In this document: positions 28,230 to 33,428 of the stretch, in pieces
Numbering within the stretch: the stretch's first letter is position 1
Layout: each line of letters begins with the position of its first letter
DNA from: a virus
Virus record (IMG/VR): IMGVR_UViG_3300045996_000199
Coordinates: 1 to 38,324 of that record
Reading direction: 5' to 3' (one strand)
DNA length: 38,324 bases
Notes under the pieces: generated by a model
The model's database searches: none
What the model was told of the DNA's origin: nothing
Seen by the model: the letters and a program-made list of their open reading frames with translations, nothing else
Program-made: the position numbers and the translations under genes

Positions 28230-28651
28230 TGCGCAACAAAGGCAACAAATCCAGCGCCATGGCAGCCAAGACTGAGCGCTTACGCCGGTATCGCGTGATG
28301 ATCGACGCATTGCTCACTGGTGAGAAGACTCCTGCTGAGCTGTCCACACACGCAAACTGCCACGTTGCAAACGGTCGTGAGCTGATCCAATCCATGATGT
28401 ACTTCGGCTTGGTGCGCAGGGTATCGGAGGCTCACAGTACGCCTATCGGCCAGCCTGCCGTCTATGCACTCAATGATGAATCCAAGATCGGCCCATTCTT
28501 CGACTTCATCAACATTTGCCAGTCTGTGATGGAGGAGCGTGGCTTGCTGGATACGATTGATGACGAGCTGGAAGCAAAGCGAGACAGCAAGGATATCAAG
28601 CCGTTCCGTGATCCTCTGGTAGCTGCTTTCTTCGGAAAGGCCGCAGCTTGA
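28229..28651 (+). CDS. Winged-helix-like protein of replication module
   Basis: A 140-residue protein with TAAGGAGCCAGCATA before ATG 28229 and a one-base overlap with the preceding stop. After a basic N-terminus, residues about 20-70 form a likely winged helix (YRVMIDALLTGEKTPAELSTHANCHVANGRELIQSMMYFGLVRRV), then a helical acidic region DFINICQSVMEERGLLDTIDDELEAK. It fits a DNA-binding accessory protein of early replication or regulation. No named family is claimed. Confidence 0.6.
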   Translation: MRNKGNKSSAMAAKTERLRRYRVMIDALLTGEKTPAELSTHANCHVANGRELIQSMMYFGLVRRVSEAHSTPIGQPAVYALNDESKIGPFFDFINICQSVMEERGLLDTIDDELEAKRDSKDIKPFRDPLVAAFFGKAAA

Positions 28652-29265
28652 AGCCCTCCACGCTCACCCGTAAAGCGCCTATTACCAGGACAGGGTTTAA
28701 GCCAGCAGAGCCAAAGCCGCCGAAAGGCCCGCGCAAGAAGAAATGCCAAGCCTGTAAAACGCTCTTTACGCCGTTTCGTGCTCTGGAAGCATGGTGTAGT
28801 CCAGAATGCGGTTTAATCGTCGCCAAAGACCGTTTGGCAAAGCAGGAGCGCAAGGTTGACCGTGAGCGCAAGCAAGCACTGAAAAGCCGCAAGGATTGGG
28901 AGCGCGAGGCCCAGCAAGCCATGAACCAGTGGGTGCGCGAAGTGCGCGATGCCGACAAGCCTTGCATTAGCTGCGGACGGTGGCATGAGGGCCAGTGGCA
29001 TAACGGACATTACCTTAGCCGTGGTGCGCGCCCTAATCTGGCGTTGGAAGAAAGCAACACAGCAAAGCAATGCCAGCCCTGCAACGTGCATCTAAGCGGA
29101 AATCAGGTGCAATTCCGAGCCGGTCTGGTGGCTCGTATTGGCCTGCAAGCAGTCGAAGCGCTGGAATCTGACCATGTTCCGCGAAAGTACACGATTGAAG
29201 ACTTGCAGGCTATCCGTAACAAATACCGCGCTTTGGTGCGCCAAGCAAAGAAGGAGGAAGTATGA
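28648..29265 (+). CDS. ninG: NinG / Rap recombination protein
   Basis: A 205-residue protein starting at TTG 28648, overlapping the previous stop by four bases (TTGA). It has the complete NinG pattern: a basic N-terminus, first zinc pair KKCQACKTLF with later WCSPEC, a long charged coiled helix (LAKQERKVDRERKQALKSRK), then CISCGRWHEGQWHNGHYLSRGARPNLALEE and NTAKQCQPCNVHLSGN. Lambda NinG (Rap) is a Holliday-junction and D-loop endonuclease that boosts RecBCD-mediated recombination. Its presence with NinB, RecT and YqaJ means this phage has a full recombination kit on both arms. Confidence 0.92.
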   Translation: MKPSTLTRKAPITRTGFKPAEPKPPKGPRKKKCQACKTLFTPFRALEAWCSPECGLIVAKDRLAKQERKVDRERKQALKSRKDWEREAQQAMNQWVREVRDADKPCISCGRWHEGQWHNGHYLSRGARPNLALEESNTAKQCQPCNVHLSGNQVQFRAGLVARIGLQAVEALESDHVPRKYTIEDLQAIRNKYRALVRQAKKEEV

Positions 29266-30725: not shown

Positions 30726-30950
30726 ATGCTCACATTCAAGCCGCTAGGGCCAGATGCAAACGGCCAGTTCTCAGTAGCCTATGAAACTCCAGGCATTCCT
30801 AATTCACTCACTTTGCACTCTGCTGGTATGACTGAAGATCGTGCTAAGGCTGAATGTGACCGGCTTAACGAAGAGCAAGTTGCTGATATGCGGCTTGAAC
30901 TGCGCGATAGTGCTAACCGAATCGTGAAGGACGTTAATCGTGGCCGGTGA
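30726..30950 (+). CDS. Small protein preceding replication initiator
   Basis: A 74-residue protein (ATG 30726, weak GAAAG site). The N-terminus is beta-like (LTFKPLGPDANGQFSVAYET) and the rest a charged helix (EDRAKAECDRLNEEQVADMRLELRDSANRIV). It overlaps the GTG start of the replication initiator by 11 bases and supplies its AAGGA ribosome site. No family recognised. Confidence 0.6.
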   Translation: MLTFKPLGPDANGQFSVAYETPGIPNSLTLHSAGMTEDRAKAECDRLNEEQVADMRLELRDSANRIVKDVNRGR

Positions 30951-32025
30951 TTGGATAAAAATGAGAAATGATCTTGCCGAAGACCCCGCTGTAATTGGTA
31001 TTGCCTGTGCGCTGGAGTTGAGTGAGGATGAAGTTGTCGGAAAACTTCATAGGCTATGGAGTTGGGCTGATAGGCATACAACAGATGGATGTGCGCCAGC
31101 TATTACGCCTAAATGGGTTGATAGGTACGTATCGGCACCGGGTTTTTCCTCTGCAATGGAAAGGTTCCACTGGATCGGATTCTCCGATGCTGGTGTCTCG
31201 TTTCCTAATTTCGATCGACATAATGGACAGTCAGCTAAGACGCGTGCTGAGGCAACAGAGAGGAAAAGGTTGTCACGGAAAAATCGTGACGACGGCGAGA
31301 CAGGCGATCAGCGCACGGCGATCCCAAGGCCATTTGTTCGCCATGTCATGGAAAGGGATCGCTATACATGTGTCTATTGCGGGACAGAAAGCTCCGAGAA
31401 AAAGGAGTCTAGCAATCGGGCGGTGATGAGTATCGATCACCTAGTCCCAGCGACACGAGGAGGCGCGAATGCTGTTAGCAATCTTGTTTGCGCGTGTAAA
31501 TTGTGCAATGCAGAGAAGAATGATCGGACTCCCCAAGAGTGGGGGTTACTGCCGACTTTCCTTCAGCCAGGAGTCTCCTACGATGGGAGGTTTATGTCAC
31601 AAGAATCTTGTGACAAATTTGAGACCAGAGAAGAGAAGAGAAGAGAAGAGAAAGAAGCTACTACTCCGTCATCTGACGATGACGTGCGGGCATGTCCTGT
31701 CGGCACACTTGTTGACCTATACCACGAGTGCATGCCAAACAATCCAAGGGTAAGAGTGCTGAACGAAGCACGCAAGGCAGCAATACGCCAACGCTGGCGA
31801 GAAGCTGCAACGATGGAATGCGAGCCATTCGGCTATAAGACTAAGGCGGAAGGGCTGGCAGCTTGGAGGCAGTTCTTCCTGATCTGCGCTGAGTCTGAGT
31901 TCCTGACTGGCCGATCGAAAGCGATTCCTGGCAAGCCCACGTTCATTGCCGACATTGAATTCCTTTTCTCACCTAGCGGCTTTGCTAAGACGCTGGAAAA
32001 CAAATACCACCGCGAGGCAGCATGA
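30940..32025 (+). CDS. Replication initiator (O-like) with internal HNH nuclease domain
   Basis: A 361-residue protein from GTG 30940. Residues 1-105 are the N-terminal DNA-binding domain of phage replication initiators (AGDWIKMRNDLAEDPAVIGI, RLWSWADRHTTDG, DAGVSFPNFDRHNG). Residues about 126-210 form an HNH endonuclease domain: C144-x-x-C147, D166-H167, the GGAN...NLV stretch and C186-x-x-C189 in CKLCNAEK. After it comes the usual TREEKRREEK segment and a C-terminal domain (250-361) with LAAWRQFFLICAESEFLTGR. In the relatives I recall, the NFDRHNG...KR part runs directly into REEKRREEK, so the HNH looks inserted. Two matched 21 bp dyads flank it, a possible origin. It overlaps the DnaB helicase gene by four bases, as O precedes P/DnaB in lambdoid phages. 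Confidence 0.85.
   Translation: MAGDWIKMRNDLAEDPAVIGIACALELSEDEVVGKLHRLWSWADRHTTDGCAPAITPKWVDRYVSAPGFSSAMERFHWIGFSDAGVSFPNFDRHNGQSAKTRAEATERKRLSRKNRDDGETGDQRTAIPRPFVRHVMERDRYTCVYCGTESSEKKESSNRAVMSIDHLVPATRGGANAVSNLVCACKLCNAEKNDRTPQEWGLLPTFLQPGVSYDGRFMSQESCDKFETREEKRREEKEATTPSSDDDVRACPVGTLVDLYHECMPNNPRVRVLNEARKAAIRQRWREAATMECEPFGYKTKAEGLAAWRQFFLICAESEFLTGRSKAIPGKPTFIADIEFLFSPSGFAKTLENKYHREAA
31271..31291. promoter_or_regulatory. Dyad 1 in initiator gene (possible iteron)
   Basis: TGTCAC-N9-GTGACG with 6 bp perfect arms (GTCACG/CGTGAC). Upstream of the HNH coding part. It has the same outer arms, spacer length and codon phase as dyad 2. Confidence 0.55.
31595..31615. promoter_or_regulatory. 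Dyad 2 in initiator gene: 21 bp perfect palindrome
   Basis: TGTCACAAGA-A-TCTTGTGACA, 10 bp perfect arms about a single base. Downstream of the HNH coding part, 324 bp (108 codons) from dyad 1 and 11 bases before a pure-purine repeat. Perfect dyads of this length are unlikely by chance in coding sequence. Confidence 0.65.
31627..31651 (+). repeat. Purine pentamer repeat (AGAGA)5
   Basis: Five tandem AGAGA units give a 25-base all-purine run, which encodes the charged REEKRREEK stretch. The unit length of five means gain or loss of a copy would shift the frame. All-purine tracts are easily unwound and often flank replication origins. Confidence 0.8.
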
Positions 32026-33428
32026 CAGAACAAGACCAAATCACCAATGACGCACGTATTGCCGTTATGGCTGAGCAAGAAGTGATCGGTGCACTCTTGC
32101 TGGACAACGATGCGATCGATCGTGTGCAAGACCTGATGCCGAGCCACTTCTACCGCGCAGACCATGCTGCAATCTTCTCAGAGATTCGCCGCCAGATCGG
32201 CATGGCTAACCGTGTTGACCCGCTTTCTTTGCTTGAGCCATTGCGCGGCAAGGTAGATGACTGCATGCGATACCTGATCGAACTGCGATCGAATTGCGGC
32301 AGTTCGGTGGTCATTCGTCGCCATGCCGACATCATCATGGATAAGGCCATGAAGCGCGAAATGATGTCGATCGGTCGTGATTTGGAAACTGCTGCGATCG
32401 GCAGCCTAACCCCTGCGGAAGAACTGATAGCCAGCGTTTCGGCACGGCTGGATGAACTGGTTAAGCAAAAGTCCGGTAGTGATCCTGTCTTGCTGGGCGA
32501 CATGCTTTCCGACTACGCTAATACGATCCAGCGCCGGATGGATGGCGAAGAAAAGCCGATCGCTATGGGGTTCGCTGATGTCGATCGAATGATGGGCGGC
32601 GGCATCGAGCGAGGAACGCTTACGGTAGTCGCTGGGCGTCCTGCAATGGGCAAGACGGCATTTGGCCTTACTGTGGCCCGTAACGTGGCTCTGGACGGCG
32701 TTTCGCTGTTCCTATCCATGGAAATGTCCTCCACCCAAGTCAACGACCGTAATATCGCGGCGATCGGCAAGATTCCTGTTCAGTGGCTGCGCCGTCCACC
32801 TGAGAACTACGGCAAAGGCTCTATCGACGAGCAGCATTGGGACAACATGACACGGGCCTACAGCCTAGCCCAGAAATATCGCCTCTACATTGACGACCAA
32901 ACCGCGCTGAACCTGCTTGCCATTCGATCGAAAGCGCGCAAGGTGCGGCGAACGGCTGGCGCGCTGGATCTGATCGTGATCGACCAGCTGAGCTTCCTCA
33001 CCGGCGCTCAGTCGGATAAGTCCTACGAGCAAGTAGGAGAATACACACGCGGCCTGATCGCGCTGGCGAAGGAATTAAACTGCGCCGTAATGCTGCTGGC
33101 CCAGCTTAACCGTAAGTGCGAGGAAAGAACGAACAAGCGCCCGATGGCCGCTGACCTAGCCCAATCCGGCTCGATCGAGCAGGACGCATCCAACATCATC
33201 TTGCTATACAGGGACGAAATCTACAGCCCCGAGTCGCCAGACAAAGGCGTTTGCGAAATCAACGTGGTAAAGCAACGGCAGGGCCAGCCTGGAACTGTCG
33301 GGCTCGGCTACGTACACGACCAAACGCGCTTTCAAGACCTTGCCTACCAATGGAATCCACATCGGCGCGAGAGTGATAAGCCGGAACTTGGTGAGCGTCG
33401 CCGTGGATTCGGACTTCCGCGCAACTAA
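32022..33428 (+). CDS. dnaB: Replicative DNA helicase, DnaB family
   Basis: A 468-residue helicase. The N-terminal domain has AEQEVIGALLLDNDAIDRVQDLMPSHFYRADHAAIF, standard for DnaB, followed by a linker and the RecA-like motor with Walker A GRPAMGKT at 205-212, FLSMEMSSTQV, Walker B LDLIVIDQLSFL near 317, LAQLNRKCEER and the C-terminal arginine-finger region VKQRQGQPGTV. It forms a hexamer that unwinds the phage fork and is presumably loaded by or with the initiator whose gene overlaps by four bases. No primase domain or phage DNA polymerase was seen, so it must recruit host primase and polymerase III. Confidence 0.95.
   Translation: MTEQDQITNDARIAVMAEQEVIGALLLDNDAIDRVQDLMPSHFYRADHAAIFSEIRRQIGMANRVDPLSLLEPLRGKVDDCMRYLIELRSNCGSSVVIRRHADIIMDKAMKREMMSIGRDLETAAIGSLTPAEELIASVSARLDELVKQKSGSDPVLLGDMLSDYANTIQRRMDGEEKPIAMGFADVDRMMGGGIERGTLTVVAGRPAMGKTAFGLTVARNVALDGVSLFLSMEMSSTQVNDRNIAAIGKIPVQWLRRPPENYGKGSIDEQHWDNMTRAYSLAQKYRLYIDDQTALNLLAIRSKARKVRRTAGALDLIVIDQLSFLTGAQSDKSYEQVGEYTRGLIALAKELNCAVMLLAQLNRKCEERTNKRPMAADLAQSGSIEQDASNIILLYRDEIYSPESPDKGVCEINVVKQRQGQPGTVGLGYVHDQTRFQDLAYQWNPHRRESDKPELGERRRGFGLPRN

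Follow-up and report, generated by a model that had tools for sequence, protein, structure and literature searches.

The DNA analysed here, in the following called the window, comprises the 38,324 nucleotides of IMG/VR virus record IMGVR_UViG_3300045996_000199 (positions 1 to 38,324) and encodes a replication initiator, in whose gene two matched inverted repeats (dyads) and a run of five AGAGA units are found. Very probably, the initiator recognizes the dyads in its own gene as iterons, and dyads and (AGAGA)5 run together constitute the origin of the phage in the hinge-encoding part of this gene. The purine-repeat tract probably melts to start replication. A defined cassette geometry, selection acting on the DNA and co-variation with residues 105 and 109 of the initiator are visible in the sequences. 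An earlier sequence-only reading of the window had placed an origin of dyad iterons and a melting tract inside the initiator gene, a proposal which is supported by the conservation of the cassette, by the co-variation of a further dyad in the part encoding the N-terminal domain (N-domain) and by a residue code.

Dyads and purine run in the initiator gene

30940..32022, + strand: replication initiator gene (361 amino acids, GTG start; order of parts: N-domain, HNH domain, disordered charged hinge, C-terminal domain (C-domain))
31271..31291, + strand: dyad 1 (half-sites GTCAC 31272-31276 and GTGAC 31286-31290)
31595..31615, + strand: dyad 2, a 10+1+10 palindrome (half-sites GTCAC 31596-31600 and GTGAC 31610-31614)
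31621..31625, + strand: degenerate third half-site GAGAC, in register, 11 base pairs (bp) past GTGAC and 1 bp ahead of the run
31627..31657, + strand: purine run, candidate unwinding tract ((AGAGA)5 at 31627-31651, pure purine onward to 31657)

The window contains exactly two mismatch-free copies of the sequence TGTCAC-N9-GTGAC (31271-31290 and 31595-31614), the two dyads being 324 bp (108 codons) apart and in the same codon phase, as the sequence-only reading had described. The outer design that it assigned to them matches exactly at both sites but is better written as GTCAC-N9-GTGAC (19 bp). Dyad 1 is the weaker one with 6-bp arms (GTCACG-N7-CGTGAC). Dyad 2 is indeed a perfect palindrome and the longest perfect inverted repeat of the window (spacer up to 9), and the identical 19 bp, GTCACAAGAATCTTGTGAC, precede the purine run of a relative that lacks the HNH domain (L026). 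The run follows 11 bases past the palindrome with exactly five units, again as described before, and represents the sole purine or pyrimidine stretch of at least 18 bases in the window; for low duplex stability it ranks at the 99.1th percentile within the gene and at the 99.2th within the window.

Chance levels of the dyads were estimated by synonymous-codon shuffles of the initiator gene. An arm of at least 10 with a spacer of 0-1 is obtained in 1.3% of the shuffled genes, two or more copies of TGTCAC-N9-GTGAC in 0.03%, and any two dyads with a common 5-bp arm and N9 likewise in 0.03%. The guanine-cytosine (GC) skew, proposed earlier as a further indicator, has its minimum near 28 kb, where the gene orientation switches, and is therefore uninformative on the origin.

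Conservation of the cassette and the residue code

Viral contigs, prokaryote genomes and phage records were searched for relatives with the N-domain or with the complete protein, and the discovery set was thinned to 133 non-redundant genes (<85% identity). An AGAGA-type purine run is present in the hinge of 122 of these 133 genes and of 99 of 104 relatives collected anew. The cassette, carried by 122 of the 133 genes, is composed of 5-bp half-sites 11 bp apart, a dyad of 19 bp whose centre measures 9 bp, and an (AGAGA)n run 1-2 bp further on, with half-sites at about -41, -30, -16 and -5 upstream of the run, i.e., in 11-bp steps for the same orientation. The half-site classes vary among families (GTCAC, GTAAC, GTCCG, GTTGC, GTAGA) and the geometry is constant: considering spacers of 5-13 bp, the 9-bp centre is found in 187 of 193 dyads (69/74 for GTCAC, 71/72 for GTAAC and 47/47 for GTCCG). 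A match of 9-10/10 among the L1/R1/R2 half-sites is reached by 57% of the genes compared to 2.3% of the codon shuffles, and among all lags, lag 11 shows the greatest excess over the shuffles (0.366 vs 0.309). The run falls within the least stable 5% of the 30-bp windows of its own gene in 99% of the genes, and the coding strand carries the purines in the 122 run-bearing genes. A distant HNH-bearing initiator of another lineage (L100:2998-3918) instead has a pyrimidine-rich counterpart, CTCTTCTCTTATCTCTTCTCC, past GTGAC half-sites, with its putative run on the opposite strand, and another relative (L020:166-1158) contains a long unbroken array of GTCAC half-sites ahead of its run, with three dyads whose centres are 67 and 78 bp apart.

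It might be argued that these repeats mirror the protein, with the charged REEKR linker and SRxxRD-like peptides being selected and the DNA pattern being secondary, as the run gives the same KRREE-type peptide in every frame and GTCACGCxxxxxGCGTGAC encodes recurrent peptides. However, the cassette is found in all three reading frames (run starts in frames 0/1/2: 81/4/37), the 11-bp spacing of the half-sites is no multiple of three, codon shuffling abolishes the pattern, and arginine is encoded by AGA at 216 of 233 positions (93%) in the charged hinge compared to 271 of 2610 (10%) elsewhere. This count was made on peptide-defined stretches; a count limited to pure-purine runs is circular and was discarded. 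The frames, the step size and the AGA bias therefore indicate that selection acts on the DNA as well as on the protein, which leaves a purely protein-driven origin of the pattern with hardly any probability.

Many relatives contain an extra dyad in the part encoding the N-domain, at codons ~50-56 or, in the GTCCG class, at codons ~21-27. Its class agrees with that of the dyad in the hinge in 76 of 78 genes, compared to a mean of 25 and a maximum of 41 in 10,000 permutations, and the encoded amino acids follow the class of the N-domain dyad (GHA..VT vs GNA..VT). Such additional sites, next to the winged-helix-like character of the N-domain, would also suit dyads which serve as operators, by which the N-domain represses its own transcription, without forming an origin. 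An operator has no use for a purine repeat of the melting type, yet the hinge dyad is fixed at 1-2 bp from one; moreover, the sites are inside the coding region instead of at a promoter, and the gene which follows encodes a DnaB-like helicase, in other phages instead a DnaC- or P-like loader. An exclusive operator function thus appears quite improbable, and dyad binding could serve operator and origin uses alike.

The origin reading is further supported by a link between half-sites and the amino acid sequence of the initiator, which centers on one predicted helix:

31228..31290, + strand: predicted long helix after the wing, codons 97-117 (DSSP of models)

Among the N-domain columns, residues 105 (codon 31252-31254) and 109 (codon 31264-31266) show the strongest association with the half-site class as judged by mutual information, and they are located one helical turn apart in this helix. 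For the right half-sites the rule reads as follows: A/S/G105 with Q/K109 specifies GTGAC, T/G105 with V109 GTTAC, D/E105 CGGAC, A105 with M109 GCAAC and K105 TCTAC. It is correct in 105 of 113 discovery genes. The rule was then frozen and applied prospectively to the 104 new independent genes, 99 of which have a run and 81 of which are classifiable; 78 of the 81 were predicted correctly, with three no-calls and no wrong call. When the helix and the dyad-coded columns are left out of the tree, 14 of 18 inferred switches of the site class share a branch with a switch of the residue class (p about 3.5e-13). Clean contrasts are provided by L031 (D105, CGGAC) among A105/GTGAC sisters, by L064 (AQ, GTGAC) beside L063 (TV, GTTAC), and by L209 and L215 (TV, GTTAC) inside a D/E-K, CGGAC clade.

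A natural exchange of N-domains is found in the Rac prophages of Escherichia coli. The YdaU proteins of K-12 (L255:4120-4977; NC_000913 1421119-1421976) and of E. coli 442/2 (L082:1228-2016) have nearly identical C-domains and different N-domains, DUF1376 in K-12 and the PHROG_2509 type, i.e., that of the window, in 442/2. In the 442/2 gene a purine run accompanies GTAAC sites, whereas the K-12 gene has TGTTCAAAC-type repeats and no such run, so that the pair is, judged by its sequences, a natural swap of origin specificity. C-domain relatives of the window initiator that have other N-domains (L008-L019, L022, L023) also lack an AGAGA run; together with the YdaU swap this indicates that iterons and run travel with the N-domain. 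In L008-L019, which combine a window-type C-domain with other N-domains, different hinge dyads are seen, e.g., TTCAACG.. / CGTTGAA. As its DUF1376 N-domain and hinge repeats differ, K-12 YdaU was dropped as a test case; its hinge repeats (TGTTCAAAC / GTTTGAACA) suggest that DUF1376 initiators may carry in-gene iterons of their own. Rac was reported to have an active origin, oriJ (PMC3945230), but no information was found on where it lies with respect to ydaU.

Several observations weigh against reading the dyads and the run as an origin. The third half-site of the window is degenerate, GAGAC at a position occupied by GTGAC, GTTAC or CGGAC in most relatives, and the window gene is without the extra N-domain dyad. 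The residue rule was originally derived from the discovery data, in which 8 of 113 genes violate it or get no call, and the prospective set contains no gene of the GTGAC class, so that the backing for the window's own class comes from the discovery set alone, with the contrasts of L031 to its sisters and of L064 to L063 among it. The tree is based on about 80-116 columns and many of its forks are unresolved. Finally, fold searches with the whole protein and with the N-domain gave nothing significant, the weak MarR/CRP-like winged-helix matches reaching a best E of 0.28.

The HNH domain between the dyads

31369..31539, + strand: HNH nuclease domain (Pfam HNH_5 extent), located in the extra 279 bp that separate the dyads here compared with HNH-free relatives

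Residues 144-200 of the initiator match HNH_5 (E 2.5e-10); HNH_5, HNH and HNH_4 all exceed the Pfam cut-offs, and the zinc-cysteine motif SIDHLVP...NL..C..CN is conserved with residues that look intact. An intron, intein or RNA element around the HNH domain was considered and rejected, as the frame is continuous and neither an Rfam match nor an intein domain was found.

The expectation that the dyads become adjacent in relatives without the HNH part is borne out: in the HNH-free genes L103 and L021 the starts of two GTCAC-N9-GTGAC dyads are 45 bp from each other (gene positions 332 and 377), compared to 324 bp in the window (332 and 656); in the HNH-bearing L002 the positions are 335 and 662. 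The simplest account would be that the HNH domain was inserted, or retained from an ancestor, between two pre-existing dyads with the dyad beside the run left intact. The HNH part would have entered an L103- or L021-like ancestor by in-frame insertion between two of its iteron dyads, splitting the array and preserving the run-adjacent dyad, which is expected to be the essential one. The sequence-only reading had offered both a split array and a target duplication brought by the HNH domain; the split is favored, and a target-site duplication around the HNH domain is indistinguishable because the half-sites repeat anyway. GTCAC half-sites flank the HNH domain in all four HNH genes of the window's clade, as would be expected if the HNH domain had come with its own dyad copy and dyad 1 were the by-product. 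However, L103 and L021 possess dyad 1 at the same gene position and within a similar peptide (LSRxxRD) and, as both are HNH-free, dyad 1 need not stem from the insertion, making this duplication unlikely. It would concern the history of the HNH domain alone and is compatible with the dyads acting as an origin.

The distribution of the HNH domain is patchy, with four HNH and six HNH-free genes in one supported clade. Over the whole tree the five HNH genes, with L100 on a long branch, need four HNH changes, at least three of which are forced, and a single ancestral gain is unsupported. Moreover, the N-domain of the HNH-bearing L006 is 75% identical to that of the HNH-free L032 and at most 62% to those of other HNH genes; therefore, gain or loss of the HNH domain occurred more than once. 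In the four close HNH genes, HNH identities of 54-64% roughly parallel the N-domain identities of 55-69%.

As to function, it is conceivable, albeit speculative, that the HNH domain is guided by the initiator N-domain to cut uninterrupted iteron arrays of the same class, either for homing or for destroying the origins of competitor phages or prophages, the own array being protected by its split. If true, a working initiator would at the same time be a homing device or a weapon aimed at origins. Alternatively, the HNH domain may aid initiation or be inert.

Initiator, neighborhood and comparison with known systems

31690..32010, + strand: C-terminal O-like / DnaD-like domain (PHROG_5810, 345 and 10469 matches; predicted local distance difference test (pLDDT) >90 over most of 250-350)
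32022..33428, + strand: DnaB-like replicative helicase gene, directly downstream of the initiator gene (Pfam DnaB_C E 6.8e-70, DnaB N-terminal domain; PHROG_19)

Residues 1-121 of the initiator belong to PHROG_2509, replication initiation (E 3.2e-48), and residues 220-359 match the O-like PHROG_5810 and PHROG_345, with helicase recruitment as the putative role of the C-domain. In the predicted structure the N- and C-domains are confident, and residues 212-244, covering the hinge, are disordered or of low confidence. The PDB sequence search with the initiator gave no match, and a search for relatives via the downstream helicase returned zero matches. A NinG/Rap-type recombination gene (28648-29265) lies ~1.7 kb upstream of the initiator gene, a lambdoid-like neighborhood. 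All 12 copies of CGATCG in the window, fewer than the expected total of 18, are within the initiator and DnaB-like genes (31212-33172).

In ori-lambda, dimers of the O protein bind 19-bp inverted repeats within gene O, and the adjoining tract that opens has its purines almost exclusively on one strand (PMC5043065). The window resembles it in the predicted in-gene origin, the 19-bp inverted-repeat iterons, the one-strand purine tract and the adjacent genes for initiator and helicase delivery (PMC5043065, PMC7466680). Several inverted-repeat iterons in the initiator gene and an adjacent, easily opened and purine-asymmetric tract, as in lambda-type origins, are both present. By analogy with ori-lambda, from which we infer binding, opening and loading, an N-domain dimer would bind each 19-bp dyad via helix 97-117 and more monomers would occupy half-sites every 11 bp as far as the purine run, which would then open with capture of one strand, and the C-domain would deliver the DnaB-like helicase of the adjacent gene. 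The window origin is thus predicted to work like a lambda-type origin with an initiator N-domain unlike lambda O, since Pfam gave matches to HNH families alone and none to the lambda O family. Further differences from phage lambda are the inserted HNH domain, the several half-site classes of the family on an 11-bp lattice and a melting tract that is a pentamer repeat (40% GC) instead of being plainly A+T-rich. Bacterial oriC is similar in that double-strand sites, the DnaA-boxes, have a short tandem repeat on one strand (DnaA-trio) at a constant distance behind them; the repeat of the window is AGAGA, not the DnaA-trio, and its initiator is unrelated to DnaA.

Other PHROG_2509 initiators, i.e., Salmonella phage epsilon15 p23, E. 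coli 442/2 Rac YdaU and phiPSA1 gp34, share the N-domain and the kind of cassette with the window (epsilon15: GTCCG class, AGAGA run; 442/2 YdaU: GTAAC class, AGAGGA run) but have no HNH domain and other C-domains (DnaT in epsilon15). Odn of phage ICP1 combines an iteron-binding initiator domain with a nuclease domain in one protein and attacks the origin of a satellite (PMC8263062). The window protein is likewise a fusion of an initiator DNA-binding domain to a nuclease, differing in that Odn consists of T5orf172 nuclease and RepA_N, whereas the window protein has HNH, retains its O-like C-domain and has its own probable origin in its own gene. In the literature no description of the cassette or of the residue code was found; subscription papers were little covered, so that priority is uncertain.

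The same type of initiator and cassette is present in chromosomes of Planctomycetes, in L204 and L207 (CP036432.1) and in L198, with two initiator loci in TBK1r, and these cases show that this origin type has a wide host range. A compact origin is predicted for a widespread group of temperate phages, the hosts of which extend from Enterobacteriaceae, Pseudomonas and Burkholderiales as far as Akkermansia and Planctomycetes. Most initiators of these phages carry the annotation hypothetical, DnaT-like or primosomal protein I. The points of interest are the unusually clear protein-DNA code and the HNH-split array. The code is readable in that two residues predict the choice among five origin sequences, and two-residue swaps offer a direct test of origin specificity, of the replication compatibility of co-resident prophages and of how new origin types evolve. 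Moreover, the fixed junction between iterons and pentamer repeat is a simple model of how an initiator converts double-strand binding into melting, and the HNH variant is a natural example of a nuclease inserted into an origin.
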